In this document: in pieces, positions 26,111-59,429 of the stretch
Position numbering within the stretch: the first letter of the stretch is position 1
How the letters are laid out: each line of letters begins with the position of its first letter
Assembly (NCBI GenBank): GCA_030062745.1
Contig: CP099851.1
Location: forward strand, 9,426,393 to 9,490,392
DNA: 64,000 bases
Origin: Capitulum mitella
Lineage: Eukaryota; Arthropoda; Thecostraca; Pollicipedomorpha; Pollicipedidae
Reading direction: 5' to 3'
Notes under the pieces: generated by a model
Told to the model about the DNA's origin: nothing
What the model saw: the letters and a program-made list of their open reading frames with translations, nothing else
The model's database searches: none
Translations under genes and position numbers: made by a program

Positions 26111-27808
26111 CAAGAAGCAGTCCTGCCCAAAATAGAGTGCAGTTGCCCTGCAAATGTGATTTCATTTTCATGCTTGGTATGGGTAAGGCAGCATTGTGAC
26201 TTCCACCAGTTAAATGTATGTTGAAAGTGTGCTCACTGTCTACAGTGCTATCCAAGGACTTCTTGCCATTGTGTTGTGCCCAGTCTTCCCAATTTTGAGT
26301 GATTTATATTTAAGCATCTGCCATTTGCATTGTACTTTTTATCTTAATTGTTGCACTTTTTGTAATCCTGGGGAGGGCTGGGGCCCAGGTACCATTGCTG
26401 GCACCCCCACTTTGAAAAGTTGTGACCATGGACTACTTCCCTTGCAACAGCATGTTGGAATTCACCAGCCACTTCCATTGCATCACTTTCAGCATGCCCA
26501 GCTAACTGTCCTTGAGAGGAGGCCCCCATGACATTCAAAAGAAATCCATGTTTGTATAAAGTGAGCACTGAATTTTGCAGAAATGCTAATTAGGTTAGGT
26601 TAGGTTAGGTTAGGTGGTATTGGCTTATTTGGCTTTTTACACAGCTAAATAATTATTACAACAAAGCAATCTGTCAGAAATATAGTATCCTGAGTCAGAA
26701 GGTGTGATCACCTGCTCAAGGTTGTAAACAAACTGTCATTTCTGAATGACCACCTGGTATGGGCTCTATGGGCATGGTAGCACAGTATTGTAACAAGCTT
26801 TTTCATGCAGGTTTTCTGTGGTCTTGCTGTAAGATATGTTATAATGGAAAGTATTGCCATTTGTGGTGTATTGGTCATTTGTTACAGGAAATTTTCTGAA
26901 CTAGGCTGAAGATGTAGTCTTTTAACATGACTCAGTTTCTTCAAGCAGTTTAAATATTCCTTTATAATGTAAAGCAGTTTTATCCAGTTGGTGTTAAGGT
27001 AGATTTCATGTGGACTAGACAAAACATCAGAGTGATTTCCATAGTTCAAAAATATATTAATAAAAATTAGTTCTGAAAAAGTGAAGGCCTGTTAACCTTG
27101 CTGGCCCTCCATCTTGCATGGTTGGGGCTATGGGACTCCGGCCTCTCCCCTGTTCCTATGCCTTTGCACTGTTAAATGCTACAGGCACACCTCTTGCAGA
27201 GCTATCTTTGCTGTATGCCTATGGATTGTTGTGTGGAAGCATAGTAGTAAAGCTTTGTTTATTTTAATGTCAAAGTTACAAGTCTTGAAAACTGAATGAG
27301 CATCACAATGTAATTGCTTTTTGTGTACTGCAATCTTAATTTATAGCAAGAAGAAACAATAAATTTTTATTGTTGTCATTGGGATCTCCCACCATTTCTG
27401 CCTGGTAAATGCCACCAGATCTAATCTAGCTCAGAAAAGTTAGATGCTCAAGACTTTGCCCTAGGATACCAAACATGTGTTGATATGTTGTTATATTTGG
27501 CAGTATGTGGCAGGTAGTTGATCAGGTACCAGAAGACATGCTGGTGCCAGGTCTCCAAATGAAATGGGACATGGGCCTGATTGCCCATCCCTGGATATGT
27601 CATTGTTAGAGTGACTTAATACATATCAGTTGGTAATCTGCTATGTTCTGCAAAGTCATTTTTAGAAGGTTCTGCAAAAGGAAATTGTTTCCCATACAGT
27701 AATACTTATGGTTATTGCCTCATTTTTATGTAGCTGTGGCATGCCTAATGTGACAGTGCAAGAGGAATCTCCACACCCTGACCTCATGAAATGCTATGAT
27801 TGTTTCAG
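26111..27808. other. AT-rich region upstream of RABL6; likely promoter and 5' UTR lie here
   Basis: No coding frame of note. A short telomere-type run is present at 26590-26616 (separate entry). The first coding exon of RABL6 is preceded by a good acceptor (TGTTTCAG, 27801-27808), so at least one non-coding first exon should exist upstream in or beyond this interval; I could not place it. Confidence 0.4.
26590..26616. repeat. Short (TTAGG)n run
   Basis: About five copies of TTAGG. This is the canonical arthropod telomere motif, but such short interstitial runs are common and it is far from a chromosome end in this context. Confidence 0.8.
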
Positions 27809-27829: not shown

Positions 27830-27953
27830 ATGTTTTCTGCCTTAAGAAAGCTCACAAGCAAGAATGAGCCTACTCCATCATCAGCATCATGCAATGTCCA
27901 GACAATGTCATCCCACCTTCAGAGGAAGTTTGCTAAAGGCATTCAGTATAACA
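27830..27953 (+). CDS. RABL6: RABL6 coding exon 1
   Basis: Acceptor TGTTTCAG at 27801-27808 leads into a short 5' UTR, ATG at 27830. Encodes 41 residues from [10 protein letters not shown] to AKGIQYN and ends A|GTAAGT in phase 1. The start matches the family's conserved MFSAL beginning. Confidence 0.88.
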
Positions 27954-30900
27954 GTAAGTCACCACATCTTTAGATGACTTTGCATTTGTTTGCAGTTGCA
28001 GTTTGTGTTTGAAACATAAGTGGCAAGTTAATAATGTCAGTTGGCAGATTTTGTGTGCACACAGAAAAGAATAAGCAACACAGACACTTGCTGAGGTGTG
28101 CAGCTTTCACAGAACACATTGATTCTCACTGCCATATTGCTTTTTCAGAAAAGTGGTGTGGTTGCTGAAATAAGCAAAACAACTACATTTTGATGTATAC
28201 AAAATAGTTATCTTAAAAGAATTGTACATTTTCTATGCTTTAGTCCCATTTTAGGCCAGGCTGCCTACTTTTAGTCACATTTTGTGCACCAGCATTGTTC
28301 AAGGCTGGGATCATTTGATTTTATACTTATGTGAGAAGTCATTTACTGATGTTCATTGATTAAGCATGTTTTTATGCTTTCAGTGAAAATTGTGATAAAA
28401 GGAGATAACAATGTTGGGAAAACATGTCTGTTTGATCGTCTGCAAGGAAAGCCTTTCAGTGATTCATATGTTCCAACTCCAGAGATACAGGTGAGAATTG
28501 CGTGTGCATCTACATAATGGTTTTCTCCCTATGTAGAAATGATATAGGACCTAGCAAAACGAAATGTGGCAGTATTTCACTAGCAGTATCCAAGGGACTG
28601 CCATTGGAAATGTGTGACCTGTCTTGTCTTGTGACTAATGGTTTTGTGGGACATTGAAATCATCTCTAGAGCAAGGTAGCTGTCACATATGGTAAAATCA
28701 CTCTGGAATGGTTGTTGGGTATTAATGGAAGTTAAGAAATAGCAGCAGTAATTACAGTTAATACATGTGATTTGTACTTGAACATGTGGTTTATAAACAA
28801 ATTAGGGCATTGCCATTCAGTTTCACATTCTTACTTCCAAAGTCAAAAGGCTGTTATCCTGAACATATCTGGTGCTCTGATGCAGGTGGCTAGCATACAG
28901 TGGTCATACAAGGCCACTGATGATGTTGTCAAGGTGGAGGTGTGGGATGTCGTTGACAAGGCCAAAAAGAAGAAGAAAATGGAAGGTAAATCATCTAGAT
29001 GTGCAATATGCGCACAAAATTGTGGAAACCATTGTTTTTAAACTGTCAGACTTCTGTAAGCTGGCTTCCATGGATTAGACTCCAAGTTTGAAAGCTTGGG
29101 TGTTAATAATTGCCTGTACTCTGTAGCATAGTCATGAAATTGTAGCCTCGTCTGGACTGAATGGTGTAATATTCGGCCCAGTTGTGTTTGGCCTGTATTG
29201 TGCCTCTGATCTCCATCGATCTGTTTCCCACTGTCGCCAGAATTGGACAACATCTGCCCTCACTTTGGTTTAGTGCCTGTCTGGCGCCTGTCTGGTCTGT
29301 GTTTGCTCTCTGTTGAACCATTGCTCCATGGCCGATTTGGACCTGGCTCTGGACGGCGTTTGGACCGAGCTTTGTGTGGCCGCACCTGATGTCCATCGTC
29401 GTCACGTCTGTCGAATTGTTCCCCGCCCTGTGTGCACTTGGCGATGCTAACACTATGCACTGTACAACTCTTTACACTTAACACTACACGCTAACATTGT
29501 ACCAACACGGTCCATTTTGTGAACGATTAGTGCTCCCTGCAGGCCGTGGCCATCTGGCTTATTGCAATGAGGCGTCCAGCCACCTTTTGGTGAGGCGCCG
29601 CACCTAGACGCCACACTGTCTGTATCTTACAACACTGCGACATCGCGTAACGTATCGTGATGTGGAGTGGCGTCCCGTGATAAACCATTACGCCGTGTGA
29701 CGCCCTGCGACATCGTGACAGATGAGACGTGTGCCCGTCCTCTCCGGGTGTGGGGGTACGCGCGACATGTTGTACATCATAATGCGACATTATGGCGCTG
29801 CGTCGTCTCCTCACCTGGCGTGGCGTGTTGCGGCGCTGTGTGACGCTGGATGGGCCGGCAGGTCTCAAGCTAGAGAACAGCAGCGCCGCCGTGCCGGACG
29901 AGGTGGCGCTGGACGCCGAGTTCCTCGACGTGTACAAGGGCACCCACGGCGTCATACTGGTGCTGGACATCACCAAGGCCTGGTGCGTGACGGCAGCCTG
30001 CCGCGCCGGACATCGCCTGGACTTGGCCGACGCCCAGAGCCGGGCATCAGGCAGGCAGCAAGCTGATGCCGCTGTCGGCCGTTGCCCTGCAGGATGTTAG
30101 GAAGTTTTTGGGGCCGACCATCTTGCCAGCTTCCTCTTCGTCGGTTGTGACGGCCGATTCCTGAGTTTGTCGCGCGATTGATGCGGAGTAACTGAAGCGG
30201 TAATGCGGCAAGTGGTGCCGACCCGCCTCGTTCACCCGATGACGCAGCTGTATGTGCTCGGTGGTGCTGCCGTGTTCGCCTGAGGACGCCGTCCGCTTCT
30301 CGTGACGCCGCCGCCGGCCGGCAGGACGTTTGAGTACGTGCAGCGCGAGGTGCCTCGGATCCCGGGCCACATACCGGTGCTGATTCTGGGCAACCACCGC
30401 GACATGGGCCACCACCGTCAGGTGCGCGAGGACGACGTCCGCTTCTTCGCCGAACACGTCGAGAGGTGGGTCACCGCTCCTGACGCGCTGCTCAGGCGGC
30501 CCTCGCGCGCTGTGAATGCAAGCAGCCGAGCTGTCTTGTTGTTACGGAAATCGCATAGCACGATGGCTCGGAGTGCCGTGGGTGATGGTGGGCTTCGCTA
30601 TAGAGGGACACTTGATGCGTGATGAGTACCCAGGGATCAACCATTGCTGCGTCTTGAATTGACCATCGACGGTAAGAAGTGTCATTCATTGGTACCTTGC
30701 ACCATGTGGAGGACATTGTTAACTTCTTATCGGCAAGACGTTGAGAAAATTAGTCATTTCAGGTCAATATTTCTTCGATGAGGGAACTTCGTGCAGTGCT
30801 CCTGCATTAAAATGTTGTTCATAGAAGTTGGTTGTAAAAAAATGGTGTCCGCTCACAGCCCCAAAACTACGACCGCTTTCACAGCTACAGGCCCGATCCA

Positions 30901-33900
30901 CTAACCCACAGTATGCATTGAGGCCCTCCTTGACTCAAGCTTACTGCAGCTGTACTGTTGCCTTTGGTGGGCAGGTCGGACTGCAAAGTGTTACATGGTG
31001 TGGCCTGTTGAGTCGTGGGCGAGGTTGAAAGTCCGTTTTTCTTCTTGGTGTCTGAGTATAATTTTTGTTTTGGAGTACATCATTGTAGAAAGAGTAATAC
31101 TGGTTGAAATTGGCGTTGTGGGCATAATTCATTTATGACATCATACCTGCTTCGTGATGAATGGAAGCAGAGTAATTTTCTTGCAGAGTTAGAGATTTGT
31201 GAACATGGTTATAATGTAAGTTTCATTGGAGACATAGGGACAAATATTTTGGGGGAAAACATTTTAGGAGCACAGTTTTTTTGGTGTTTGTCGGCACCAG
31301 AAAACAGCCCCTTCCTGACCCTGGTCATAGGTGTATATTCGACTTTTCCTGTGTATGCACTCAAACAAAGGATGCTTTGTAGTTAAATTCTCTTTAATTA
31401 TCTTTTGTTTGTCCTCGTGCTTCATACAAGTTGCTCCGCCATGTCATACTGTCATATATAATGCTGTTCCTGTTGTAAGTTGGTCCTCTCGTTAACACGT
31501 TGAGTCACTGGCAGCTCTAGCTTCAGGTTCAGACCGTGCACTGACTCGCGCTCCGTTCCGTCCGCGCGGCCCGAACTCAGTATCAGCTGTCCAGTTCCCC
31601 GCGACCCGGCGACCCGACCTCGACACTGTACACCACGTGATAACAGTCTCGACCATCCGGACCGCATATATCCGAATTGACGCCACGCTGGTCAAGGTGA
31701 CCCGACACCCGCCGGGCACCGATACGGACCGGCCCGGCGCCGGCCAGGGCGGCCAATCCCGCATTCACAGGGGGGACGGGCAGCACGTCTCCACGCCACG
31801 CGGCCCCCCTGCACTGTGTGCACATGGAAGGGATGGCTCGGAGGGTCTGTGGCTGGAGCGTCGTTCTCGTCCATCCCCGTCGTCCGGTTGATTTGGACAC
31901 TGCCGTCGCGGCGCTGAATCAGGCCTGCTGCCACAGGTCGAGAGCGGCGCTGAATCAGGCCTGCTGCCACAGGTCGAGGGCGGCGCTGAATCAGGCCTGC
32001 TGCCACAGGTCGAGAGGCGACGCCCTGGTCCGGTACGCCGAGTCGTCGATGCGGAACGGCTTCGGCCTGAAGCTGCTGCACCGCTTCCTGAACGTGCCGT
32101 TCCTGGCGCTGCAGCGCGACTGCCTGCTGACCCAGCTGGCCACCAATGAGCGGGAGGCGGAGGCCACCAACCAGGAGATGGACCTCTACCAGGAGTCAGA
32201 CGACGCCAACTATGACATGTGAGGCAGCGCCCGGGCCGGGCCGGTGGGATGACGTGTGAGGAAGCGGCCGGGCCGGGCCGGTGGGATGACGTGTGAGGCA
32301 GCGGCCGGCCGGGCAGGTGGGATGACGTGTGAGGCAGCGGCCGGGCCGGACCGGTGGGATGACGTGTGAGACAGCGGCCGGGCCGGACCGTTGGGATGAC
32401 GTGTGAGGCAGCGGCTGGGTCGGACCGGGTCGAACAGGTCAGGTTAGACAGGTGGGAAAGGGAACAGCACGGACTATCGCAGAACTTCAGAGTTTTCCGT
32501 TGTCATCCCATTTTGAGCATTCAGAGTTGTCCGTTGCCATCTCATTGCCAGCATTATCCAGCGGTTTCGATAACTTTCCGTCATACTGATTGCGAAAAAC
32601 AGACTAGTAAGTACAGTAACGCGTACAATTGCTGTTGCATTGTAGAAAGGCGTCTGTAAAGAACTGATTGTATCAGGCAACAGTGGGTCTTCTGCCTCCT
32701 TTGCCTTGCGGTCCTAGTCACTCGCTCGGCAGTGGAAAACTCGAGCCGTGTAAATGGGTCACCTACCTCTGGTCTGATTTAGACGACAGACGATGGGCAG
32801 CCATCCGTGATAGGATGGTGACCGTCGTTTTGCGCATTGTGTGCTGCCAGAGGGCCCGAGGTTGTGACTCCGTCGTTGTGTACTCGCGTGGGATTAGTTC
32901 ATAGTGTGCTGCCGCGCGATACGCTGTAAGCCTGCTGCTTTGTGCTGTGTGTGCCGTGTCATCACCTTGTGCTATGGTGCTGTGTCGCTGCTGTGTATTG
33001 TGCTACTGTCGCCGCATCGCCGCTGTGCGTTATTGTGTCGCCGATGTGTGCTGTGTGCGGTGTTGTGTTGCCGCTGTGTGCTGCGATGTTGTGCCGCCGC
33101 TGTGTGCTGTGCCGATGACTCCGTGTCTGGTCGTGTGCCAGGTTCCTGGATCAGCTGACCAACAGGCGGCGGCAGGCGGCGGACGCGGCGGCGCCCTCGC
33201 AGAAGATGCCGCACTCGCAGACAACCACAGCACTGAGCGCTGCTGCACGGCCGGCCGGTGAGTGTCCGGCGACGTCCTCTGACCCCCGCCCTCCCGCCCC
33301 GGACACGGCGGGACAGGACCAGCTGAGGGGTGCCCCGGACACGGCGGGACAGGACCAGCTGAGGGGTGCCCCGGACACGGCGGAACAGGACCAGCTGAGG
33401 GGTGCCCCGGACACGGCGGAACAGGACCAGCTGAGGGGTGCCCCGGACACGGCGGAACAGGACCAGCTGAGGGGTGCCCCGGACACGGCGGAACAGGACC
33501 AGCTGAGGGGTGCCCCGGACACGGCGGGACAGGACCAGCTGAGGGGTGCCCCGGACACGGCGGGACAGGACCAGCTGAGGGGTGCCCCGGACACGGCGGG
33601 ACAGGACCAGCTGAGGGGTGCCCCGGACACGGCGGGACAGGACCAGCTGAGGGGTGCCCCGGACACGGCGGGACAGGACCAGCTGAGGGGTGCCCCGGAC
33701 ACGGCGGGACAGGACCAGCTGAGGGGTGCCCCGGACACGGCGGGACAGGACCAGCTGAGGGGTGCACCACTACCCCGCCTCGCTGCGTTGCCCTTTTGAA
33801 CTCCCCTAGGGCGACGGCTGGACATTGCTGGTTTTGACTCTTTTCTTAGGTGGAACTTTTTGGGCCTGGAAGTTTTGCTTTTTTGTGACGGCCGGGGGAA

Positions 33901-36900
33901 AGGAGGTTGGACGGCTGCGTATTCGTGAACCTGAGAAGCAAAACTAACCGGTGTGATGGCGCCGCATCACCATTAAAACTGTAGTCTCGTTTTACACACA
34001 GCGCTTGACGCAAGTGGGGCCAGCAGCACCTGGTTGAGATTAATTTCTGCCACTGGTTTTAACTGGTTAATACCAGCCAGTTGAAAACGAAGCTGGGAGG
34101 AAAGGGCAAACAGTGACAGATGTTTTGCGTGAAATTTCCTTATGAATAAGTTATGTTGATTGTGTAAAGGACAACGGATAGCCCAGTATCCATGAAAAAG
34201 TGTGATCTAACATTAGGAAGTCTCACTCTGAAAATGACAGATGCAAATAGTGTTAGATAAGGACTGAATTATGCAGAAAATGTGTTTGTTATATTTGTTC
34301 TTTGAACACTATAGTGCAAAAATATTGGGAGCTCGTGGTCATTGAAGCGATAACCTATCTAGAGTTGACCAAAAATACGCAAGTGAATATTTGCACAACA
34401 CAGTATACATTTTATTGATGTGTAGTGGCGAAGCAAAGGGGAGGGCGAGGGGGCGACCGCCCCCTCCTGGAGGTCGACAGGGGCCGTCAGCCTGAGACAA
34501 GGACAGGTGGCGCCGAGACGGTCCTGGGATAGTCAGAGGTCCTGTGAGAGGGGGTGTGAAACAGTCAGGGGCCTTGGGATTTTCGAGGGCGTTCAGGGAC
34601 TGACATGGATCTTGAGACGGTCAGGGGCCACTAGTCTTTCGTGAGCATGAAGCAGCAGAGGGTCCCGAACAGTCAGGGCTCCTGAGACGATCGGGGACCT
34701 GAAACAATTATGCGACGGTCGGAAACCATGATACAGCCAGAAGCCCTGAAACAGTGAGGGGTCTTGGGACGGGTAAGGGCCCGGGATGGTGGAATCACCG
34801 ACAGTCGGGACCGTCATGAGCCTCGAAACAAACGCGATCGTGGGAAGGTCGTGGGCCCTAGGACCCATGTCGACCTAGGGACGGTCAAGGATCCGGAATG
34901 TTCGGGGGCCCGGGAATGGTCAGGGATTTCGGGTGTGATAAAATAGGAAACCTGGGACGCTCAAAGGCCCTGGGATGGACGAGCGTCCTGTGACGGTAAA
35001 GGTCCGGGGCTGGCCAGGATCCGGAACGGTCAGGAGCGAGGGATGGTCGGGCATCTGGGAGAGTCATGAGTCCTGAGAATCATGAGTCCTGAGAATCATG
35101 AGTCGGGAGCCTACAACGGCCAGGGACCTTGGGACAGTCAGGAGGGCCGTCTAACACTTCCCTGCTACGGGCCACTTCAGGAACTTGCTCTCGTCTTGAA
35201 CCATATCGGTTGAAATGACACATGGATTCGAAAAAGACTTCAGCTACTAATCCTCCACCTAACCCCATAGCCAACGGAAACTAACTTACATGTAAACGAC
35301 GTTTCACGACACAGTAATAATTCAGCTACATAGATAACTGCGGCTTCCACCTTGCCACAAAACAAGTATGCTAGGAAAAGGCAAAGGTGCGGCTCAGATA
35401 GTACCATTGAGCAGCGCGCGTGGAAGACGGCAAGGAAAAAAAGAATGTGCCTAGAAAGTAGCCATGAGCGAACGCGTAAGGGAACGAATCGGGAGGCCGT
35501 CTGCCCACCACTGACCAATCTGTTGATGTTGTCAGTTCGAGGTTGCCAGGTGAACGGCCAGTCGGCCAGTGGAATGCAGGAAAAGAGCGGAAATTAACGT
35601 GTTTTAGAAAACTAGCAATGTGCGACGTAACGGTCGGGGATTGGAACCGGCGTACTCTCATACGTCTCAAGCATCTTACCACTGAACTGCATTTTTTTTC
35701 GCGCGCGGACGCATATGTAATACCGCGGGAAAGTAACAGTATGCAAACTATTCCACTTACTATGTTTGTTTTGTAAATTTCTCCCTGATGTAAGAACCTA
35801 GTCCTATTTTTTCTCAGGAACCCCTGAAAACACAATGGGTAAAATCTGTAAAGTTTTCCTAATTCGAGGTTTGTTTGGGCCCAAATTTGAGACTACCCTG
35901 TCTTGGACCGAATCCCGGTTACGCCACCGTTGATCAGTAACCATCAATTGCATTCGTTGTAAGGGCGCCGGGAACAGATTACTAATGGAGTAGCTTAAAC
36001 TAGAAGTCATTCCAGACCATATCAAGGTATAATAATATTTTGTAACCAGTCGTTACCTAGTCGACGTAGTCATTCGAGCGATGATTGAAGATCGTTTTAC
36101 TCCGCGGTCATAGCTATGTGGAATATAAAGTAAGCGGTATGTAAGTAGCTAAGTAGCTGTAATAGTTTGTCAGTAACCATCAGATGTGCCCTTTGCGCAG
36201 CTGATTGTGTTCGTTACCAGTCAGTAAGTAGAGTTATGCCAGAATTGCGAAGCGGCGTGATACCTTATCGTTTATCAGTGGGCACCTGCTCTCTAGATGT
36301 GCCTTGGCGAGGACATCTTTCCCTGATTGACCTAGTAATATGGAATTTGTCGTTGGTAAAGAATGAAGCGCTTTTAAGTTCCTTTTAGTCGTGAACTGAA
36401 AATCACACAATTGAAGAAATTGATGGTGTTCTCGTGGAAACACAGCTGAAAATATCTCATTACACCGAGATGGTATTTGCTGATATGCTACTAGCAATGG
36501 GCAGTCACGTTTAACCCTCGCCCGGGGGCAGGAGTCCTAAAACGACTCCGCCTACTAACTTTTGAACAAAAAGAAATAGAGTAATGCGGCGAAAACCGGT
36601 GTGTTGCTCTTTGCATAAGCAACTCAGCGATATCTCATTTTTTGGTTTCTGGTCAACAGGTGTCGTCTCAGATCGTGGTAATATCCGGAAAGCGGCCATG
36701 TCGAAATACTTCGAGGTTTTCATGACAATGTATTTTCCAAACATACGAAAGTAAATCAATTTTGTAAGTATTAGCGTGTTGGCCGTTCTCTTAGCTGTCG
36801 CAAAATAAATGGGTTTTTGGATCTAGTTCAATAGATTACCTCCCACGTCACAGAAATGTTATCATAGCTGAAATTTGCAGTGGGAGACAGGATAGTCCCA

Positions 36901-39900
36901 CCACATTTTCGTCGGGTCGCAGGTCAAACGAACGACCCGCGTGCTCCAAACTTGGTACACCGGTTTTTCTCGGGCTGGGAGGAAGTCGCCTATTTGAGGT
37001 CGCGGCCACCGTATTTCCCGAGGTCACCGCCAGGGGTGCTCATGCCGTTTTATGGAAATCACTCCTTGTCGAAAACCAGTCGAGCTAGAGCCGCCAAATT
37101 TGGTGTGCAGGTAGTCGGGCGTACGGTCTGTCCTAGCATATCGTTGTGGCTGCAACAATTTCTCTGCGCCATCGCTAGGGGCACAGCCAGATCTTGAATC
37201 TTCGAATTTTTTAACTTCTCTGGCCCAGCGTGACTTTGACCTGTAAACTTGCTTGACATTGCGTCAAACGATGCACGTCAAAATAATGTTGGTGTGGTGG
37301 ATCGTAATAAAGCATTCTTGCGAGTGTAGGTAACACTTGTCCGGTACGCAGTCACAATGGTGTTTGACGTCGATGTTTAATGTTCACGTTTGACTTAGCT
37401 TGACCTCTGATGACCTGATTCTTCCCATGCTCTAAAATCAGGTTACTGGCACCAACATTTCTGAAAGAAAGATGTTGCAATGCAACTGTTAAAGCAACAT
37501 GACAGTACCCAGTTTCCAACAAATGAAATGTGTATATTGCTCGATTTGTTTGAAAACACGACTGACATGACCACAGGTCACAGGTCACGGGCCATCGCAT
37601 GGAAAATTCAGAAAATTGCACTCTTTGTGTAGGAATGTTGAAAACTCAGCTGCAGAAAAAATCAGCGTTCTTTCTAGGGCCACTAAAAAGTTATTCAAGT
37701 AAAACCGCAGGGGGTCCCAAAGCGTGAGTTAATGTGCCGTGCGCCTGTGCCGGGCGAGAGTTAATCTGTGTGGGTTTTTTTTTTATAAATTTGATCTAAA
37801 TCGTTTGTGGAATGATGTTATACATCGGGGCTCGTGTCGACTGAAATGTTTTGCCTTGTTCTATCTTTAGTAGCATATTGCGTTCAAATTATTTGTTGTT
37901 GTTTAGTGGTGTTTTAGAACGCGCCGAGTATTGAGGTCATTCTTGCCCATGTGGAAAAATTAGGAATATGCATGATTTCTAATGCGCTTGAAATATGCCC
38001 TTTGTAATTACTAAAATTAATTTCCGCCATTTTATGACGGTTTTTCCCCGGTAAATGCAGGGAGAAAATTAGCTGGTGGAAATCCGAACTTCTGGTGTAC
38101 GTTTCAAAGTTGTGATGGTTGGTCAGCGTGCATTCGTAATGTCATCGTTGATTGGCAGCCTTCATGATTGCCACGATTCGCCGTCTGCAGAGCTGTCGTG
38201 TTGTCGCTTGCTGTTTCCCCTTCGTCCCCGTTCTTCGCCCAGTCCCCCTTCGGTCCCTGCCCATCCTTCGTCCTTCCCCTTTCCTCCGTCCTCCCCTTCC
38301 GTCGTTTTGCCCACTTTTGTCCATGCTGTCGCGGCGAACAGGCCGGGTCGATTGGGTACGTTTCTCCCAGTGCGGCGTCATAGCCGCCAGCGGAGGTTGA
38401 CGGGGCGGCCGGTACCGCAGACCAGGCCGGCAGAGGTTGACAGGGCGGCCGGTACCGCAGACCAGGCCAGCGGAGGTTGACGGGGCGGCCGGTACCGCAG
38501 ACCAGGCCGGCAGAGGTTGACGGGGCGGCCCGTGCCGCAGACCGTGGCGGCGCTGGCCTGCCGCGAAGCGCGTCCCAGCCGGGCCAGCTGTCGTCGCCGG
38601 CGGCGGCGGCGGTCGGAGCGGCCGCGGCCGACACCGGAACCGGCCCGTCGCCGGGTGACGGCGACCGGTCACCGGCACCGCCCAACGGAACAGGTCAGTA
38701 GACAGAGCTGACGGCCGGCGACTGGCACCGCCCAACGGAACAGGTCAGTACAGAGAGCTGACGACCGGCCACCGACACCGCTCAACGGAACAGGTCAATA
38801 GACATAGCTGACGACCGGCCACCGACACCGCCCAACGGAACAGGTCAGTAGACATAGCTGACGACCGGCCACTGACGCCGCCCAACGGAACAGGTCAGTA
38901 CAGAGCGCTGACGACCGGCCACCGACACCGCCCAACGGAACAGGTCAGTAGACAGAGCTGACCACCGGCCACCGACACCGCCCAACGGAACAGGTCAGTA
39001 GACAGAGCTGACCACCGGCCACCGACACCGCCCAACGGAACAGGTCAGTAGACAGAGCTGACGGCCGGCGACTGGCACCGCCCAACGGAACAGGTCAGTA
39101 GACAGGGCTGACGACCGGTCACCGACACCGCTCAACGGAACAGGTGAGTACAAAGAGCTGACCGGCAGCGCGTCAGTACACAGCTGACCAGCAGTGGGGC
39201 AGTACACAGCTGGCCAGCTGCTGGTCAGTGGGGACTGTGCCGTCCTGCCGTCGCCGCGGCTATGTGCCACCGCTTCGTTCTCCGGCACACCTGCGCTGTG
39301 CTCTTATCTGTCTGCTGTGACCCAGTTTATTCCCGGCGCGGCGTTGAGGGGGCGGTGTGTAGGCGGCCTCCTCTGCTGGGTACTGACTGCTCGGTCCGTG
39401 CCGCCAGGGCCTGCCCAGCCAGCGGCGTGCAGCACGGCGGCGGCCGCCGCCAGCCCGCAGCGGCGAGTGGACGCCTTCGTGCCGGACGGTGCTCTCGACT
39501 CGTCGTTTCTGGACGAAATGACGCCGCAGCCGACGCCGTCCAAAGCAGCTGCACCGCCGCCGGCCGCCGCCTCCGACAGGTTAGTCGGGCAGTCAGAGGC
39601 CGGGCCCGGTGAGGTCCGCGCTGGGCTCTGAACCGTGTGACAGGTTAGTCCGGCGGTCAGAGGCCGGGCCCGGTGAGGTCCGCGCTGGGCTCTGTTTGAA
39701 CCGTGTGACAGGTTAGTCCGGCGGTCGGAGGCCGGGCCCGGTGAGGTCCGCGCTGGGCTCTGTTTGAACCGTGTGACAGGTTAGTCCGACGGTCAGAGGC
39801 CGGGCCTGGTGAGGTCCGCGCTGGGCTCTGTTTGAACCGTGTGACAGGTTAGTCCGGCGGTCAGAGGCCGGGCCTGGTGAGGTCCGCGCTGGGCTCTGTT

Positions 39901-41491
39901 TGAACCGTGTGACGGGTTAGTCCGGCGGTCAGAGGCCGGGCCTGGTGAGGTCCGCGCTGGGCTCTGAACCGTGTGACAGGTTAGTCCGACGGTCAGAGGC
40001 CGGGCCTGGTGAGGTCCGCGCTGGGCTCTGTTTGAACCGTGTGACGGGTTAGTCCGGCGGTCAGAGGCCGGGCCTGGTGAGGTCCGCGCTGGGCTCTGAA
40101 CCGTGTGACAGGTTAGTCCGGCGGTCAGAGGCCGGGCCTGGTGAGGTCCGTGCTGGGCTCTGTTTGAACCGTGTGACAGGTTAGTCCGGCGGTCAGAGGC
40201 CGGGCCTGGTGCGGTCAGCGCTGGGCTCTGTTTGAACCGTGTGACAGGTTAGTCCGGCGGTCAGAGGCCGGGCCCGGTGAGGTCCGCGCTGGGCTCTGAA
40301 CCGTGTGACAGGTTAGTCCGACGGTCAGAGGCCGGGCCTGGTGCGGTCCGTGCTGGGCTCTGTTTGAACCGTGTGACAGGTTAGTCGGGCGGTCAGAGGC
40401 CGGGCCTGGTGCGGTCCGTGTTGGGCTCCGGACCGCGGGACGATGCTGCCTCACTTCGTGTGCCCGCCGTGTGAATGTGCGCGGCCCACCCGACTGGTCG
40501 ACTGTACTGGAGCGGAGTGGTGCCATTTATTTGCACAGCTGTGTTCGCGGGGGTCCGTGCCCGCGTGGCACCTGCTGTCTCGTGTAACGGTCGAGAGTTG
40601 TGTTCCAGCGAGGACGACGCGACGGCGGGCAACCCGATGGTGGCCGGCTTCCAGGACGACGTGGACGAGCTGCAGCTGGTGTCGCGGCCGGGCCGGCGGC
40701 CGCAGGCCGACTCGAGCGACGACGAGCCGCCGCCGCCGCCGCCGCCGGCCGCGGACTCGCCTGACGCGGGTGCGCTCGGCCGGCGGCGGCGCGACGCGCG
40801 GCTGGCGGCTCCTCCCGCCACGCCGGACGATTTCACAGTGCCAACGGCGGAGAGCGAGCCGGAGGAGACGCCCGTCAAGGCGCAGGCGGATGACAGCGCC
40901 GAGGCCCCGCAGAAGACGAAGAAGAAAAAGAAAAAAGACAAGGACAAAGAGGTGAGGTGGTCGGCAGGGGCGTGGCGCGGTATTCCTGTAGCGAGCGTGT
41001 CTGGTTCGATCCGCTTGGTGTGCGAACACTGGCCACCAGTCATTTCATTTTACGTAAAAAGAGAGCCGATCTGGGGTGTCGAGAGTGGAGTAGCGTTGGG
41101 CTCAGTGGCGCGCAGGCGCATGGCACCGATCGAAATAGTCAAGGTCTCTCGTTGCAGGATCCCAGACCAGAACGTACGAGTAACGAAATACGTAGCCTAC
41201 TTTCTCATGTTATTGACATATTTCTGCGGAATTCACCTCATGACGGTTTTTTATTATTAACCTTATGAAGTCAGAACACCGGTGGACTGGACAACTGACG
41301 CTTACTGCCTAGCGCCATCCTGTTTTGGACGCTTGCTCTGCACGTTTCAGAATGGGGAGAAGAAAAAGAAGAAGAAGCACAAGGACAAGGAGCCCGAGAA
41401 GAGCGCCGTGCCGCGCGAGCGTGACGCCCTGGAGGAGTTCCTGGCGGGCGACTCGGAGCCGGCAGCGGACGAGGCGTACGAAGCGATCTGA
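27830..41491 (+). CDS. RABL6: Rab-like GTPase 6 (RABL6/RBEL1/PARF orthologue), 11 inferred coding exons
   Basis: Inferred exons: 27830-27953, 28384-28490, 28886-28985, 29862-29982, 30325-30465, 32009-32218, 33142-33257, 38541-38693, 39408-39579, 40609-40951, 41351-41491, all GT-AG with matching phases, giving about 575 residues (human RABL6 is longer, about 730). The N-terminal half is a Ras-like GTPase domain: start [11 protein letters not shown]-loop GDNNVGKT (residues 48-55), then [11 protein letters not shown] and VEVWDVVDK in the switch region, [20 protein letters not shown] in place of NKxD, and [13 protein letters not shown]. The C-terminal half is low-complexity but keeps [27 protein letters not shown], two lysine-rich nuclear-localisation-like stretches ([11 protein letters not shown] and [12 protein letters not shown]) and the conserved ending [13 protein letters not shown]. 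Known mammalian RABL6 is a cytosolic/nuclear GTPase linked to ARF tumour-suppressor binding and proliferation; function here is inferred by homology. Splice-junction tandem repeats (separate entries) are the odd feature. Exon 8 is the least certain exon. Confidence 0.9.
28384..28490 (+). CDS. RABL6: RABL6 coding exon 2 (P-loop)
   Basis: Acceptor TTTCAG, donor CAG|GTGAGA. Completes ATG across the junction and encodes [17 protein letters not shown] with the nucleotide-binding P-loop, ending YVPTPEIQ. Confidence 0.92.
28886..28985 (+). CDS. RABL6: RABL6 coding exon 3 (switch II region)
   Basis: Acceptor GATGCAG, donor GAAG|GTAAAT. Encodes [19 protein letters not shown] then [14 protein letters not shown]; the WSYKxTDD and VWDVVDK blocks are RABL6 hallmarks. 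Confidence 0.92.
29862..29982 (+). CDS. RABL6: RABL6 coding exon 4
   Basis: Acceptor CCGGCAG, donor TG|GTGCGT. Encodes [20 protein letters not shown] followed by [20 protein letters not shown]; the Trp codon is split over the intron. Base composition turns sharply GC-rich from this exon on. Confidence 0.9.
30325..30465 (+). CDS. RABL6: RABL6 coding exon 5 (guanine-base motif)
   Basis: Acceptor CCGGCAG, donor AG|GTGGGT. Encodes [20 protein letters not shown] and [13 protein letters not shown], the family's substitute for the NKxD motif, ending FFAEHVER. Confidence 0.92.
31908..32020 (+). repeat. Triplicated 3' splice site of RABL6 exon 6 (36-bp unit)
   Basis: Three nearly identical 36-bp units (CGGCGCTGAATCAGGCCTGC plus TGCCACAGGTCGAGAG) end with the same CCACAG|GTCGAG acceptor, giving possible exon starts at 31937, 31973 and 32009. 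Because 36 is a multiple of three and no stop occurs, all three acceptors keep the reading frame; use of the upstream ones would add 12 or 24 residues ([12 protein letters not shown] once or twice). Confidence 0.9.
32009..32218 (+). CDS. RABL6: RABL6 coding exon 6
   Basis: Start taken at the third of three tandem acceptors because the protein then runs straight from HVER into [18 protein letters not shown] as in other RABL6 proteins. Encodes [19 protein letters not shown] and ends NYDM across AT|GTGAGG. If the first donor is skipped a TGA stop follows at once. Confidence 0.88.
32211..32425 (+). repeat. Donor-derived minisatellite at the 3' edge of exon 6 (about 37-bp unit, 6 copies)
   Basis: Units of the form GATGACGT|GTGAGGCAGCGGCCGGGCCGGnCCGGTGG repeat the genuine exon-intron boundary TATGACAT|GTGAGGCAGCG. 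Potential donors begin at 32219, 32256, 32293, 32329, 32366 and 32403. Confidence 0.9.
33142..33257 (+). CDS. RABL6: RABL6 coding exon 7
   Basis: Acceptor GTGCCAG, donor CGGCCG|GTGAGT, in phase 1 at both ends. Encodes [20 protein letters not shown] and [18 protein letters not shown], corresponding to the family's FLEMMEARSR region. The frame continues past the donor through the 36-bp array to a stop at 33799, so retention of the intron would give a repeat-bearing truncated protein. Confidence 0.82.
33301..33768 (+). repeat. 36-bp minisatellite, 13 copies, abutting exon 7
   Basis: Unit begins GGACACGGCGGGACAGGACC and ends AGCTGAGGGGTGCCCC; thirteen copies at exact 36-bp spacing. Copies 3-6 share a G-to-A change (GGCGGAAC), a contiguous block that shows recent block duplication. 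In the exon 7 frame each unit reads [12 protein letters not shown] with no stop, and several other frames on both strands are open too, which is a property of the repeat and not evidence of coding. Confidence 0.92.
33800..36510. other. RABL6 intron 7, first part: non-coding with a decayed tandem repeat
   Basis: 34480-35140 is built from degenerate units of the type CCTGGGACGGTCAGGGG (GACGGTCAGGGG, ACAGTCAGGGG, GATGGTCGGG and so on) of roughly 20 bp. 34430-34490 holds a GTGGCGAAGC...GGGGGCGACCGCCCCC motif of a miniature-element type. No exon matching RABL6 was found here. Confidence 0.45.
35625..35697 (-). repeat. tRNA-like sequence, probably a SINE head, in RABL6 intron 7
   Basis: On the minus strand an A-box-like CAGTTCAGTGG (35689-35679) is followed 41 nt later by a good B box GGTTCCAATCC (35648-35638), the spacing of a tRNA internal promoter. 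The acceptor arms do not pair, so this is a tRNA pseudogene or tRNA-derived SINE and not a working tRNA. Confidence 0.4.
36515..37760. mobile_element. piggyBac-like non-autonomous element, family C, inside RABL6 intron 7
   Basis: TTAA at 36511-36514 and 37761-37764 bounds a 1,246-bp element with matching ends: CCCTCGCCCGGGGGCAGG on the left and, on the other strand, CTCTCGCCCGGCACAGG on the right. No transposase. The interior has TGACCT/AGGTCA words near 37400-37580, like families A and B. Confidence 0.7.
38387..38540 (+). repeat. Tandem repeat carrying four copies of the RABL6 exon 8 acceptor (40-bp unit)
   Basis: Four units of AGCGGAGGTTGACGGGGCGG plus CCGGTACCGCAGACCAGGCC type, at exact 40-bp spacing. 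Each contains a GCAG|AC acceptor, ending at 38420, 38460, 38500 and 38540. Only the last gives an open, phase-matched exon; the first is in the same phase but meets a TGA within seven codons. Confidence 0.85.
38541..38693 (+). CDS. RABL6: RABL6 candidate coding exon 8 (linker)
   Basis: Bounded by GTGCCGCAG and ACAG|GTCAGT, 153 nt, phase 1 on both sides, so it fits between exons 7 and 9 without disturbing the frame. It encodes a Ser/Pro/Ala/Gly-rich linker that includes [20 protein letters not shown], comparable in composition to the ANGQSPSPGSQSP-type linker of vertebrate RABL6. Because composition alone identifies it, it could be skipped or absent from the mRNA; exons 7 and 9 also join in frame without it. 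Confidence 0.5.
38670..39155 (+). repeat. Donor-derived minisatellite at the 3' edge of exon 8 (exact 50-bp unit, 10 copies)
   Basis: Each unit contains CACCGCCCAACGGAACAG|GT (last exon bases plus donor) followed by CAGTAGACAGAGCTGACGAC and CGGCCACCGA. CAG|GTCAGT-type donors recur at 50-bp steps from 38691 to 39141; one is CAG|GTCAAT and the last is the strong CAG|GTGAGT. Donors after the first would extend the exon into an immediate in-frame TAG. Confidence 0.92.
39408..39579 (+). CDS. RABL6: RABL6 coding exon 9
   Basis: Acceptor CCGCCAG, donor GACAG|GTTAGT. Encodes an Ala/Pro-rich start followed by [20 protein letters not shown], the conserved block equivalent to vertebrate EDFVPDDRLDRSFLED. 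Phase 1 in, phase 2 out. Confidence 0.9.
39575..40440 (+). repeat. Donor-derived minisatellite at the 3' edge of exon 9 (64/68-bp unit, 13 copies)
   Basis: Thirteen units begin GACAG|GTTAGTCCGGCGGTC and continue AGAGGCCGGGCCTGGTGAGG, TCCGCGCTGGGCTCTG and (TTTG)AACCGTGTGACAG; presence or absence of TTTG makes the unit 68 or 64 bp. GGTTAG starts lie at 39579, 39643, 39711, 39779, 39847, 39915, 39979, 40047, 40111, 40179, 40247, 40311 and 40379. The array fills most of intron 9. Confidence 0.93.
40609..40951 (+). CDS. RABL6: RABL6 coding exon 10
   Basis: Acceptor TGTTCCAG, donor GAG|GTGAGG. Encodes [20 protein letters not shown], strongly conserved in the family, then an acidic/proline-rich segment and [13 protein letters not shown]. 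Ends in phase 0. Confidence 0.92.
41351..41491 (+). CDS. RABL6: RABL6 last coding exon (11)
   Basis: Acceptor CGTTTCAG. Encodes [20 protein letters not shown] then [20 protein letters not shown] and AYEAI before TGA (41489-41491). The lysine block and the D-LEEFL ending match the C terminus of RABL6. Confidence 0.92.
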   Translation, partial: NGEKKKKKKHKDKEPEKSAVPRERDALEEFLAGDSEPAADEAYEAI

Positions 41492-41989: not shown

Positions 41990-42862
41990 TCAGTCATCTT
42001 CGGCCATCTCCGAATCCCCACTGTCGTCAAACTCTTCGACGCCGTCCCACACCGTGCTGCCGTCGCACGGCGCGGCCCCCGCCGTCTGGACCACTGCCAC
42101 CTGTTCGCCGTCATCGGACTCGTCCGAGGCGTCCGAGGCGGCAGCGGCGGCCTCAGCAGCCTCGTCCTCCGCCAGCGGCGGCCAGGAGGCGTGGCAGCGC
42201 GCCACTGCCGCCGACACGCCCATGCCCAGCCCGAGCAGCTGCAGAAGCTCGTCCGACTGCTCGTCCGAGACGACGCCGCCAGCCGGGCTGAGGGTGCCGC
42301 CGGCGCGGCGCCGCCGCCGCGCGCGCTCCAGCAGCTGGCAGCTCCAGAGCAGGTCGTCGGTTCGCAGCTCCACGTCGTCCGGCCGAAGATGGGCCGCGAC
42401 CGAGAAGGCACGCCGCGCCAGGCCGAGCTCCCCGCAGCCGAGCAGCGTGCGGCCCAGCGTCTGATGCGCCTCCCACCAGCCGGGCCGCAGTCGGGCCGCC
42501 TGAGCGGCCGCCTCCACCGCCGGCCGCAGCTCGTTGACGCGCTGCAGCGCCTGCGCTCGCATCTCGTGCAGCTCGGCGTCGGCCGGCGTCAGCGTGACAG
42601 CTTCGTCCCACTGGTGCAGCGCCTCCCAGAAACGGTCGAGCTCGGCCAGCGCAGCGCCCTGCTCGCGCAGTGCGGCCGCCTGCTCGGCGGTGCTCAGCAC
42701 GGGTCGGCCGCCGGGCCGTGGCGTCCTGGTGGCTGCCGGCGGCACCGGCCAGTCGGGCTCCTCGTCCTCGTCCTCGTCCTCGTCCGAGTGTGAGAAGGCG
42801 GCCGGACGCGCCAGCCGCGACACGCGCTGCCCGGCGCGCTTCTTCCAACAGAAGCCAGACAT
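41990..42862 (-). CDS. TTC33: Tetratricopeptide repeat protein 33 (TTC33) orthologue, single exon
   Basis: 290 residues in one uninterrupted frame. It begins MSGFCWKKRAGQRVSRLA, matching the family's M-x-x-FGWKRKIGEKVSK start, then an acidic linker. Three TPR units follow at about residues 60-93 (REQGAALAELDRFWEALHQW, DEAVTLTPADAELHEM), 94-127 and 128-161 (EAHQTLGRTLLGCGELGLAR), ending in a Trp-containing helix (DDLLWSCQLLER). The C terminus is acidic with a conserved CDGS motif. Length is close to the vertebrate protein (about 262). TPRs are protein-protein scaffolds; the partner and cellular role of TTC33 are poorly known. It is convergent with RABL6. Vertebrate TTC33 is spliced, so the intronless state here suggests intron loss or a retroposed origin. 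Very GC-rich; antisense open frames of up to 200 codons are by-products. Confidence 0.88.
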   Translation of the reverse strand: MSGFCWKKRAGQRVSRLARPAAFSHSDEDEDEDEEPDWPVPPAATRTPRPGGRPVLSTAEQAAALREQGAALAELDRFWEALHQWDEAVTLTPADAELHEMRAQALQRVNELRPAVEAAAQAARLRPGWWEAHQTLGRTLLGCGELGLARRAFSVAAHLRPDDVELRTDDLLWSCQLLERARRRRRAGGTLSPAGGVVSDEQSDELLQLLGLGMGVSAAVARCHASWPPLAEDEAAEAAAAASDASDESDDGEQVAVVQTAGAAPCDGSTVWDGVEEFDDSGDSEMAEDD

Positions 42863-43232
42863 CGTGGCGCGCCGAGACGCGGCGGTTAATGGGTCTCAGA
42901 CGGTGCCGACGAACGGTGATGCCCAGGTGCTGCAGGAGACACTGTAGGGAACTGCCGGGCTATGCCATACTTCTAGGAGTGGATGCTGCTCACTGGCTTC
43001 TCAATCTGGCGACGTGAAAGGGGATCTTTTGATACTGGCGCATCATTAACAATACAATTGCTTATGTTTAGTGGAGTACGGATTGGGTGGGTCCAAAACG
43101 GATTGGTTTAACCCAATTGCCGTATGGAGGGGGGCTTCAGATGCCCCCTCTGGTTTTTTGCTCGCCATTTCCATGTTTCTTGAAGTAGCAATGTAAAACT
43201 TGGTCCCTTCTCCTGTCTATTATTTCTCGGTA
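42863..43232. promoter_or_regulatory. Upstream region of TTC33
   Basis: 370 bp between the TTC33 start codon and the TTAA element at 43237. CpG-rich next to the gene (CGTGGCGCGCCGAGACGCGG), no TATA box seen in minus orientation. The transcription start must lie here or within the transposon beyond it. Confidence 0.35.
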
Positions 43233-44454: not shown

Positions 44455-47094
44455 TGCACATTTTCATAGGTCTATCTTCCCCAGAGGCCGGTCCAGACCA
44501 TGTTGCTGGGAAGGCACCTCAGGCCATTTTTGGCAATGTTAACAGAAAACAGAAATGGATGGTGAAAAAAAAAATTAAAGTAGAAAACCACGAATGTACG
44601 GGAAAATAACTGGACATATGAAAAATAGGTGTTTCTGTCCACTTGAGGTCACCTCACAAGGTCAAGTCAAGGTTGGAGGCCACAACCAAGTTTTAAATAC
44701 ATATTTTAAATTCTGTTGATTTCTTACATGAAATATTGATAACACTGACAACTAACCAGCATTCCCGACTCGCATTTAAGTTTCAGGTTCATATCAGGTC
44801 AGATAGCACAACTATGGCCTCAAATGTCTGTGAGAATACCCTATATCAAAATGGTCATAAACAGGGTTTTTTTGACATACTGTCAATTTAAACTATTAGA
44901 GATGTTTTGAACTCAATCAAATGAGCCAAAGGACATTCCCTGCAACTATGAGCATATCTGAGGTCATCTGAAGTCCAAGATAGTAGGATGACCTGATACA
45001 TGTGCAACCATGACAGGCCCCTCTTCTCATGTCCCTGGTGCTATTTATGCAGACATATGAAGAATGGAATACAACCAGCCCTTCATTAGTATGGAATTAC
45101 TAGCAAAAGCTCAAAAATATTTTACCAGCACTGCCTAGGCACACATTATATGAAGGATCAAATACAACCTGTAATTCCTTAGTATGGGACTACTAGCAAA
45201 AGATCAAAACTTTTGTACTGGGACTACCTATGCAGACATTATATGAAGAATGGAATACAGCCTGTACTTCCTTAGTATAGAATCATTGGCAAAAGCTAAA
45301 AATATTTTAAACTTGTTAATTCAGTTTTGAAAACAAAATATTCATATAATTCCCAACTCCTAAAATTGCCTAGTTTTTCATACTTTAAATATAAGTAATA
45401 AAAGGAAAGTCCCATCCATTACCTCTCAATCTGTGCCAGTTGTACCAAAATTGGTCCATAACACAAGATCAAAATTGCAACAAAATCAATCATCAACATC
45501 AAAGTTATAACACATAAAAAATAACCCATTTGGCTATTTTGCCCCTCATATACACCCCCTTGCATGATGTTCAAAGCATCTGGTTAAGATATGTAGTTTA
45601 CATAATCATGAATTGATTGCCACTTATTGCAATCAAGCTGAACAAATGGATCTTGGAATATGGGGAAGGAGGCAAATACACCCCCCATTTGGGTGTGCAT
45701 ACTAGTGTTATGGGTATGGGAATAGGGTTCAATGCATGCTTGATACTGATACCAACCAACATCACATGGGTTTCATTCCAAATGCAATGTCAAAACTTGG
45801 CTTCGGCTTTCAACAAAATCTAATTACATTTTGCTGCATAAGTCAGTATGACCGAATTCATACTTGAAATCTAAACAGAATACCTCTGAGCAGCACAACA
45901 GCAGCAGCAGAGCTAATTGCATCACCAGATGTTTACATCAACTCAGGGACAACATTCTGATGTGGCCATGATTCACAAGCTGGCATCTGTATCCAGAAAC
46001 TGACCAGAAATCCTCTAAACCTGATAGCAAGGGCATCATTGTGATGAACATAAAGTATAAAAGTATTAAGTAATAGCTTCAGCTTCTATCATAACCACAT
46101 GGTGTCTGAACTGTGCTTGAACAATATTTGTTTGTACGATATATCTTGCTAGAACATGTTTGCATCACCAATGCCAACATCAGTATTTCTCAAGTTGTTC
46201 TGCAGCTAACCTACCCAAAGTGCAGGCTATGCTGACTTGGCCACTGGGGAACTCCACCATGATTCAACAAGAGCACACAAGCGGTTTTATATCTCTTCGG
46301 TACAAAATAGCACAATCTAGCAAAAAAATAGCACTGCCTAGAAAACATGCCACCAGGTGCCACATAGGTATGGTTTTGTAGGATGGTCTGAAAAAATCCT
46401 ACTTTCCAGTGATACAACTGACTTCACATATTTAAAGGTAAACACTATTCACAATGGTGTACATCCAGGAAACCAAGCACCTGCATCATATCACTAAGTG
46501 GACATGTGCATAACTTGCCAGAATAGGTACACACATAGTGAAGACCATTTTCAAAACCATGGCATGTTCTATTACATCTTGTTGAGCTCGCAGCATGAAT
46601 GGAGCAGTGGCATGACAAGTGTGACTTTGTTTCATACACTTTAGAGCAATTCTAGAAATTTTAAGGCAGATTCTAGTATTCTATGGAAACTGTAAAGAAA
46701 AAAAGACCTTATCTAAATAACCCAAACCTAAATAATAAATAAACCTATATAACCTAACCTGTAAAGAAAAAAACTGTAAAGGTAAAAAAGTAAAGGTCCT
46801 GGGACTGCAAATATGCCACAACCGGTACTCCATAACTGGGCCTAGCATTGCTCAAATTCTGAGAACAGATTCTGATCTCGCTGCCCCTCAGGGTGTTTGT
46901 CATTCCTGTGCCATTGCATAAAGTTGCTATCCGACAGTTTACATACCGAAGCATTGTCTATCGCTACGCAGCTAATGCAGACATAACCGCGTCACATTAT
47001 CACTCCACGTGTTCAAAGAAAAGAGCACAAGGCAATCGGCGACCACAGTACATACGCGCTTCTCACTTCTGTTTTGCGCAATCAGCGCCATTCA
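44455..47094. other. AT-rich stretch without a gene; family B relic at its left
   Basis: 44460-44640 in minus orientation resembles the right part of family B (GGCCTGAGGTGCCT...). 45050-45300 shows three loose direct repeats of about 100 bp (TATGAAGAATGGAATACA, CTTTAGTATGG-type words, CTAGCAAAAGCTCAAAAATA). No convincing coding frame. Confidence 0.35.
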
Positions 47095-51053: not shown

Positions 51054-52052
51054 CCTGCTATTGATGTAAAAACGGGGTGGGGTCCTTCCGGACACGGACC
51101 CTACCACGACACCAAACAGCGCTACGCACCGCCCAGCGCCGTTCCACCCTCCACCGTGAGTCGTCGGCCGAACTCGTCATGGGGAGCCAAAAGCACCGGT
51201 ATCGCTGTTTCGCTCGCCTGCCACACGGTCGTTACGTGCGACCCGGTACACACATAGGGGAGAGTGGGGTAAGGCGCCCACTTGGGTAAAGCGCCCACCA
51301 CCATCTAGCGGCGAAACTAAACGACGTACCCCCATTTTAGAATTATTGGTAAGCAGAGGCCTTTCGGAAAGGCGGCGGGTTGGATTTTGGTGCACCTGGT
51401 GAGTTCGAGCTGGTTACGGCGAAGCGATGTTTGTTTTCGTACGTTACGATGTAAAAAATACAGACGTTAAGATTACGTTTGTGTATATCTAGCCGTCAGC
51501 TTACGCATAGCAACATATGGTGGCAAAAAGCCTTGTGTAAGAGCATGTGTATGGTATGATCTATTTGCGTCGTGATTGTCTCGTCATCCTGATACGTTTG
51601 AAATAGTTGCAAATGGTGCCTGTGGACAAAGCGCCCACCCCCAGGGTCGGGGTACAGCGCCCAGTGGGCGTTTTAACCGCACTTAGATGGGCGCTTTACC
51701 CCACATTCATGCAAATAAAAAAAACATCCTTGCATATATGCATTCCGGAAGTCAAGAGTTAGAATCAGTGCTTGGTTGGCAGTGGAGCGAAAGTAACTAT
51801 GACAAAACTGACCGAGGGGTAGAAGGTCAGTACACTGTTTCCCCCTCTCCCCGCTTCAAAGTATGGTCTTGTTTTTTACTAATAAAATAATGCATGACGT
51901 GACGCAGACTGGTGAGAGCTATCACATTCACCCTAGTACAGGATGATACTGCCCCTCCCCTCGCATATAAAGATACGCATAAGGGCTGCGCTGATTTGTA
52001 CTAATGCATCAGTACAAATCAGTGATGTCAGGGGTGTACTGTTGCAGATATC

Positions 52053-52667
52053 ATGCCTCGAAAATACGTAAGGAAGAGTACGTGGGCAAGCTATAGTACT
52101 GAAAGTCTACAAGCTGCGTTGACTGCTGTAGGAAATGGTGAAAAGCTGAAAAGCATGTCGACCCGATACAGCATCCCCCGCAGGACGCTCCGCCTCCATA
52201 GAGACAAGGTTGTCCAATCTCCAGGACGTCCGAAGCTGGGACGTTTCAGGCCAGACATCAATGAAGCATTTGAGGAGAAGCTTAAAAATTACATTTTGGA
52301 CATGGAGAAGGCATTCTTTGGCCTAACGACTACCGATGTCCGGCGCCTTGCTTACGAGTTCGCCCAGGTGGAAGGCATCACTCACCGATTTAACATGGAG
52401 CAGAAGATGGCCGGGCGAGACTGGCTACGTTGTTTCTTTCAACGCCATCCTGAGCTCTCTATCCGGAAGCCTGAGGTGACCAGTTTGGCTCGAGCTGTGG
52501 GATTCAACCGCCCACAAGTGAAACGTTTCTTTGACATCTACGGAGAACAGCTCGACGCGTGCAAGGCGAACCCGATGCGAATATGGAACGCTGATGAGAC
52601 AGGACTGACGACGGTACAGCAGACTCTGTGTTGGCTACCAGGGGACAACGCCGAGTGGGCAAGGTAA
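52053..52667 (+). pseudogene. pogo/Tigger transposase, N-terminal part
   Basis: ATG at 52053. Residues about 15-60 form a psq-type helix-turn-helix (SLQAALTAVGNGEKLKSMST, YSIPRRTLRLH), followed by a CENP-B-type second DNA-binding region (FRPDINEAFEEKLKNYI ... WLRCFFQRHPELSIRKPE) and the first catalytic Asp in IWNADETGL (residue 181). A small indel near 52625 throws the frame and the reading ends at TAA 52665-52667; the catalytic domain continues in another frame. Confidence 0.85.
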
Positions 52668-59373: not shown

Positions 59374-59426
59374 GCGGTACTGACTGACTCTGTATTAGGC
59401 TCTAATACAGAGTCAGTCAGTACCGC
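59374..59426. repeat. Perfect 25-bp inverted repeat with 3-nt loop
   Basis: GCGGTACTGACTGACTCTGT+ATTAG (59374-59398) and its exact complement (59402-59426) surround the loop GCT. It sits between the linker and reverse transcriptase regions of the non-LTR relic and does not belong to any protein motif. Confidence 0.9.
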
Positions 59427-59429
59427 GAG

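Follow-up and report, generated by a model that had tools for sequence, protein, structure and literature searches.

Tandem arrays spanning exon-intron junctions of a barnacle RABL6 gene as probable mirage-type minisatellites

Five of the 20 exon-intron junctions of the RABL6 gene of the barnacle Capitulum mitella lie inside tandem arrays whose repeat units comprise both exonic and intronic bases. These arrays, which are known from one assembled sequence, are probably minisatellites of the "mirage" type, produced by local tandem duplications that included a junction, enlarged by slippage or unequal exchange and tolerated by splicing. The duplications would have arisen within the GC-rich 3' part of the gene, where GC-rich sequence adjoins the exons, and the duplicated unit would have included an exon-intron junction by chance. 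Replication slippage or unequal exchange may then have expanded the units and partly homogenised them. Junction-crossing duplications would be tolerated by selection because the exon and its own splice site remain intact, so that an array could grow into the intron as a nearly neutral change. The spliceosome would most likely stay with the copy adjacent to the exon, and the other copies would act as decoys, yielding low-level products with a broken frame or, at the exon 6 acceptor, longer in-frame ones.

The RABL6 gene and its tandem arrays

The RABL6 coding region extends over positions 27830-41491 of the forward strand of the window (the entire 64,000-nucleotide stretch analysed) and comprises 11 exons, at 27830-27953, 28384-28490, 28886-28985, 29862-29982, 30325-30465, 32009-32218, 33142-33257, 38541-38693, 39408-39579, 40609-40951 and 41351-41491. 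Exons 1-6, 9 and 10 were matched in a translated search with a human RABL6 sequence, the match of exon 3 being weak (E 4.7), and exons 7, 8 and 11 were positioned by eye using frame and splice signals; the exon boundaries are predictions based on frame and homology. The joined exons form a closed frame of 575 codons without interruption, with GT-AG borders in all ten introns, every one of which is compatible with the frame of the homologous protein. In a protein comparison that scored 7978 candidates and gave 1487 matches, the stalked barnacle Pollicipes pollicipes supplied the top entry among the best 120 of the 1487, its rab-like protein 6 (70% identity over 100% of the length), followed by a protein of Amphibalanus amphitrite (60% identity, 89% covered); domain matches were to Ras, Roc and Arf. 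The gene is complete, and the identity proposed for it in an earlier note on the same DNA is supported. The Pollicipes alignment runs through the exon joins, in agreement with splicing at the exon-proximal sites. The gene models of the relatives diverge at two of the places considered below: a second, low-quality Pollicipes model (P0003) has about 30 additional residues following the end of exon 6, and the Amphibalanus model (P0002) is without exon 8.

Several features of the surrounding sequence were recorded. The nonamer GTCGAGAGG occurs at 30458-30466 (end of exon 5 plus the first intron base) and at 32009-32017 (start of exon 6), forming a 9-base direct repeat, identified by eye, that flanks intron 5. 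The arthropod telomere repeat TTAGG is present in five copies at 26590-26615, 1.2 kb before the start codon of RABL6. A GC-rich open frame on the minus strand at 41990-42895, convergent with RABL6, contains a single TPR match exceeding the Pfam cut-off (41990-42862 scanned) and resembles TTC33. DDE transposase frames (DDE_1, with a Tc5 DNA-binding match just below the cut-off) and a reverse-transcriptase fragment are located at 52026-53377 and 59399-59866.

Amplification of the acceptor and donor of exon 6, the acceptor and donor of exon 8 and the donor of exon 9 had been claimed in the earlier note, and Tandem Repeats Finder (TRF) recovered all five arrays on the plus strand, in agreement with the note as to position, unit length and number of copies. 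The exon 6 acceptor lies in 3.0 copies of a 36-bp unit (31908-32016) that reach 8 bases into the exon, the 20-base acceptor regions of the three copies being identical. The exon 6 donor is contained in a 37-bp unit repeated 5.9 times (32212-32428) with 7 exonic bases, and its six donor copies read GTGAGG in five cases and GTGAGA in one. Exon 8 is bordered by an acceptor array of 4.0 copies of 40 bp with 3 exonic bases (38386-38543) and by a donor array of 10.0 copies of 50 bp with 32 exonic bases (38662-39162); homology of the latter extends 38 bases into the exon (38656-38693), including a 3-base gap, and the last of its ten donor copies (GTGAGT, after 39143) is the strongest. The exon 9 donor lies in an array of 64/68-bp units (TRF period 68) repeated 12.8 times (39575-40428), with 5 exonic bases and 13 donor copies. 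Arrays account for 83% of intron 9 and 66% of intron 8. The dinucleotide GT is retained in 29 of 29 donor copies (6 + 10 + 13) and AG in 3/3 and 4/4 acceptor copies; the donor copies were located through GT-containing motifs and their counts agree with the TRF copy numbers (5.9, 10.0 and 12.8). The arrays themselves are certain because their TRF scores range from 211 to 1449.

With a score of at least 200, TRF reported six arrays inside RABL6 and one outside it, at 45055-45306. Junctions are crossed by five of the six strong arrays in the gene, or by 5/11 once the weak ones are counted, as none of the five weak arrays (score 50-199; at 32486, 33024, 35059, 38264 and 39156) crosses one. A short, ungapped self-similarity test, in which each 30-base junction was compared with 1 kb on both sides, gave best matches of 24, 21, 22, 30 and 22 of 30 at the five amplified junctions and of 15-18 at the other 15. 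At 400 control sites, 95% scored 19 or fewer with a maximum of 29, and at the 107 GC-rich sites among them 95% scored 20 or fewer with a maximum of 23; by this short ungapped measure, three of the five junctions exceed the 95% mark of the control but not its maximum.

The sixth strong array, absent from the earlier note, spans no junction. It comprises 13.1 copies of a 36-bp unit with 99% matches, lies in intron 7 on the plus strand (33296-33765), starts 38 bases beyond the exon 7 donor and has its variant copies in a single block of four. Although it can be read on from exon 7 in the same frame, within a stop-to-stop frame of 226 codons, coding use is unlikely, as the exon 7 donor is strong, the Pollicipes protein passes straight into exon 8 sequence and further frames of the array are open too, on both strands. 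High GC is a likelier explanation of the open frame than a coding extension.

As the earlier note had stated, the units of the arrays appear unrelated in sequence. In 15 pairwise comparisons against shuffles, the lowest value was 3/200 shuffles (exon 6 donor versus exon 9 donor) and the next 11/200, and a single expanded repeat family giving rise to all arrays was rejected. The units differ, and therefore several separate duplication events took place.

Base composition and the siting of the arrays

Third-position GC rises from 0.28-0.64 in RABL6 exons 1-3 to 0.80-0.94 from exon 4 to exon 11, and all arrays fall in the GC-rich 3' part of the gene. The abrupt switch within the gene (27830-41491) is located in intron 3 and may reflect a domain of recombination or biased conversion. 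In introns 4-10, edges outside arrays have a GC content of 0.58-0.74, apart from intron 10, which drops to 0.44 at its end; the four edges covered by arrays were excluded from the measurement. GC is 0.47-0.51 in the central parts of introns 5, 6 and 7, below most measurable intron edges of the 3' part, but 0.68 and 0.70 in what little remains of introns 8 and 9.

This setting bears on the rival explanation that survives best, although we consider it unlikely, namely that splice junctions in transcribed DNA are preferred duplication points in barnacles, for example through co-transcriptional RNA-DNA hybrids at exon ends or through transcription breaks. The presence of several, mostly unrelated units would fit such targeting, as would the number of junctions hit. 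In a within-gene placement test, each array was reduced to the one unit by its exon, and these units were scattered randomly across the gene, leaving out positions that are wholly coding. Five of the six strong arrays span a junction against 0.50 expected (P ~2e-5; 1.1e-5 when whole arrays were thrown), and with all 11 arrays (score of at least 50) the expectation is 0.75 (P 4.3e-4). Positions were then matched by a minimum GC over the unit plus 50 bases on each side. For the six strong arrays, P was 0.00016 at a threshold of 0.50, 0.0019 at 0.58, 0.009 at 0.62, 0.038 at 0.65 and 0.088 at 0.70, the thresholds being passed by 6/6 real seeds at both 0.58 and 0.62, by 5/6 at 0.65 and by 4/6 at 0.70; at 0.58 and 0.62, where all six seeds qualify, 1.26 and 1.75 junction-spanning seeds are expected against the five observed. 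A threshold on the unit alone gave P values of 0.0069 (0.65), 0.025 (0.70) and 0.041 (0.75) for the same six arrays.

The excess shrinks, however, when all 11 arrays are GC-matched, with P values of 0.003 (0.50), 0.028 (0.58), 0.098 (0.62), 0.30 (0.65) and 0.52 (0.70), bearing in mind that tight thresholds in part condition on exon proximity. All of these statistics describe a single gene, chosen for its striking look, and the cut at a score of 200 was chosen once the table of arrays had been viewed. Furthermore, 15 of the 20 junctions lie outside any array, including all five of exons 1-3. The siting of the arrays is partly explained by composition, and composition may not be the whole cause, in that the GC-matched excess persists for the six strong arrays. 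The repeated process put forward in the earlier note holds as regards several separate events, whereas a process aimed at junctions falls short of demonstration because GC richness around exons explains much of the excess. It is likewise doubtful, and slightly more so than targeting itself, that junction-aimed tandem duplication is frequent in barnacle genomes beyond the effect of GC, leaving many genes with duplicate splice sites and RABL6 with protein length variants at exon 6.

Predicted splicing and the origin of the units

The competing splice sites envisaged in the earlier note are a prediction from sequence. Every donor copy beyond the exon-proximal one (five at exon 6, nine at exon 8 and twelve at exon 9) leads to an in-frame stop, which begins 3, 6 or 51 bases past the start of the last codon, and the three upstream acceptors of exon 8 lead to a stop at 18 bases. 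At four of the five array junctions, an early stop is thus escaped solely by the exon-proximal copy. The exception is the exon 6 acceptor, where both upstream copies keep the frame without a stop and are predicted to add 12 or 24 residues. These residues are absent at the exon 6 start in 8/8 aligned homologues from the best 120 of the 1487 matches; P0003 carries two added residues at that point. Donor strength was calculated as pairing to the 5' end of U1. The donor copies of exons 6 and 9 pair equally to or more weakly than the proximal one, whereas the tenth copy of exon 8 reaches -13.6 kcal/mol in relation to -9.6 kcal/mol for the proximal donor, and with a stronger copy in the model, use of the proximal exon 8 donor is not certain.

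A selected splicing device, in which the copies regulate or buffer splicing through in-frame isoforms of exon 6 or optional skipping of exon 8, appears improbable. It would draw on the in-frame, stop-free acceptor copies of exon 6, on the complete retention of GT in the donor copies, and on exon 8 itself, which is flanked by arrays on both sides, starts and ends in phase 1 and has no counterpart in Amphibalanus P0002. Against this stand the early stops given by non-proximal copies at the other four junctions and the variability of the donor motifs, which is not clearly lower than elsewhere in the units (variable columns 2/9 versus 16/41, 1/9 versus 12/49 and 2/9 versus 4/15). Purifying selection on the copied donors is unsupported by these counts, and nothing in them indicates that spare donors are selected for.

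The exon 8 donor array is the one in which the direction of copying can be read. Its unit comprises about 35 exonic and 15 intronic bases, and the nine copies within the intron agree with the exon tail in 31-33 of 38 aligned columns. The peptide GDRSPxPxNG, which is encoded by the unit, occurs in the Pollicipes protein P0001, the only one of eight aligned homologues that can be judged in this region, as the Amphibalanus model P0002 and the second Pollicipes model P0003 are without it and the five others are unjudgeable. With the unit peptide present in this one relative, the end of exon 8 is probably the ancestral sequence, from which the intron copies would derive. The notion of exon edges as seeds of the arrays, advanced in the earlier note, accordingly finds its backing at the exon 8 donor only, where the exon tail shared with Pollicipes is the likely source; the other four arrays include 3-8 exonic bases, too short for a test of polarity.

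Within the arrays, the distribution of variants suggests how the copies may have spread. The last exon 8 donor copy and the exon copy have GGTCACCG in common, and five of the eight copies between them have GGCCACCG, a pattern that may reflect an escape of array ends from homogenisation, which is reported for lancelet globin mirages. At exon 9, units switch irregularly between 64 and 68 bases, and TRF reports further periods of 132 and 200. These periods, the mixture of 64 and 68 bases and the blocks of shared variants, including the block of four in the intron 7 array, are expected of slippage or unequal exchange.

It is very unlikely that the arrays represent intermediate stages in the gain or sliding of introns through tandem duplication, as modelled for lancelet globins and potato RdRp. 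Such models are published, and the exon 8 donor units do contain exon-like pieces between AG and GT, but the RABL6 gene model displays no new intron. Least likely of all is false expansion during assembly, as apparently befell one mirage in the amphioxus genome draft (PMC3087553), since ordered variants distinguish the copies and six arrays with different units would all need to be false, although copy number may nonetheless be off.

Comparison with known junction-spanning repeats

Chance inclusion of junctions in local duplications, the reading preferred here, places the RABL6 arrays beside repeats already described, and the earlier statement that no comparable gene was known is not supported as to kind. 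Tandem repeats spanning exon-intron boundaries were named "mirages" in lancelet Adh3, with further examples in troponin C, the globins BflGb6 and BflGb9, and PGBD5; in these reports, unit length varies from 10 to 160 bp, 5' or 3' boundaries are affected, many units copy AG or GT, and regular splicing is described as unaffected (PMC3087553, PMC3902484). For the human IFI6 (6-16) minisatellite, downstream repeat units are reported to serve as donors (PMC4526556, citing Turri et al. 1995), and in potato RdRp a boundary-crossing duplication is reported to have created a new intron (Ma et al. 2016, PMC4974935). Less closely related are earthworm metallothionein, for which the sections available describe intronic minisatellites and exon 4 duplications missing from transcripts rather than junction-spanning arrays (PMC12783039), and a family of prawn lectins whose coding region contains tandem repeats. 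In full-text literature covered by title and the start of the abstract, with subscription journals mostly outside, no junction-spanning minisatellite of a barnacle, another crustacean or any arthropod was found.

The five RABL6 units, of 36, 37, 40, 50 and 64/68 bp in 3-13 copies, each have an exonic and an intronic part, and their copies keep AG or GT. They are similar to the lancelet mirages in spanning a boundary, in affecting 5' or 3' boundaries, in differing in length and in copying AG or GT. The lancelet cases come from different genes, and length polymorphism and somatic instability are further features of the mirage type. RABL6 belongs to a barnacle, has five such arrays in one gene with GC-rich units of 36-68 bp, and is represented by one assembled sequence. 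In both RABL6 and IFI6, donor copies are carried by tandem repeats at the end of an exon. The two differ in that IFI6 involves one junction, downstream donors reported to be used and a shorter unit, reportedly of 12 bp, while RABL6 involves five junctions, at three of which the distal donor copies would bring stops beginning 3, 6 or 51 bases on. Potato RdRp resembles RABL6 in a tandem duplication across an intron-exon boundary, but there the duplication made a new intron, while in RABL6 multi-copy arrays are present and no new intron is seen.

Junction-spanning minisatellites are seldom reported, the cases found being those of lancelets and one human gene, and the RABL6 arrays would extend mirages to arthropods. 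The gene would serve as a natural experiment on the choice of the spliceosome between many near-identical sites and on whether such arrays contribute to intron gain. In relation to the known systems, the RABL6 arrays belong to a repeat type already described, and what appears new is the host group and the presence of five such arrays in one gene.
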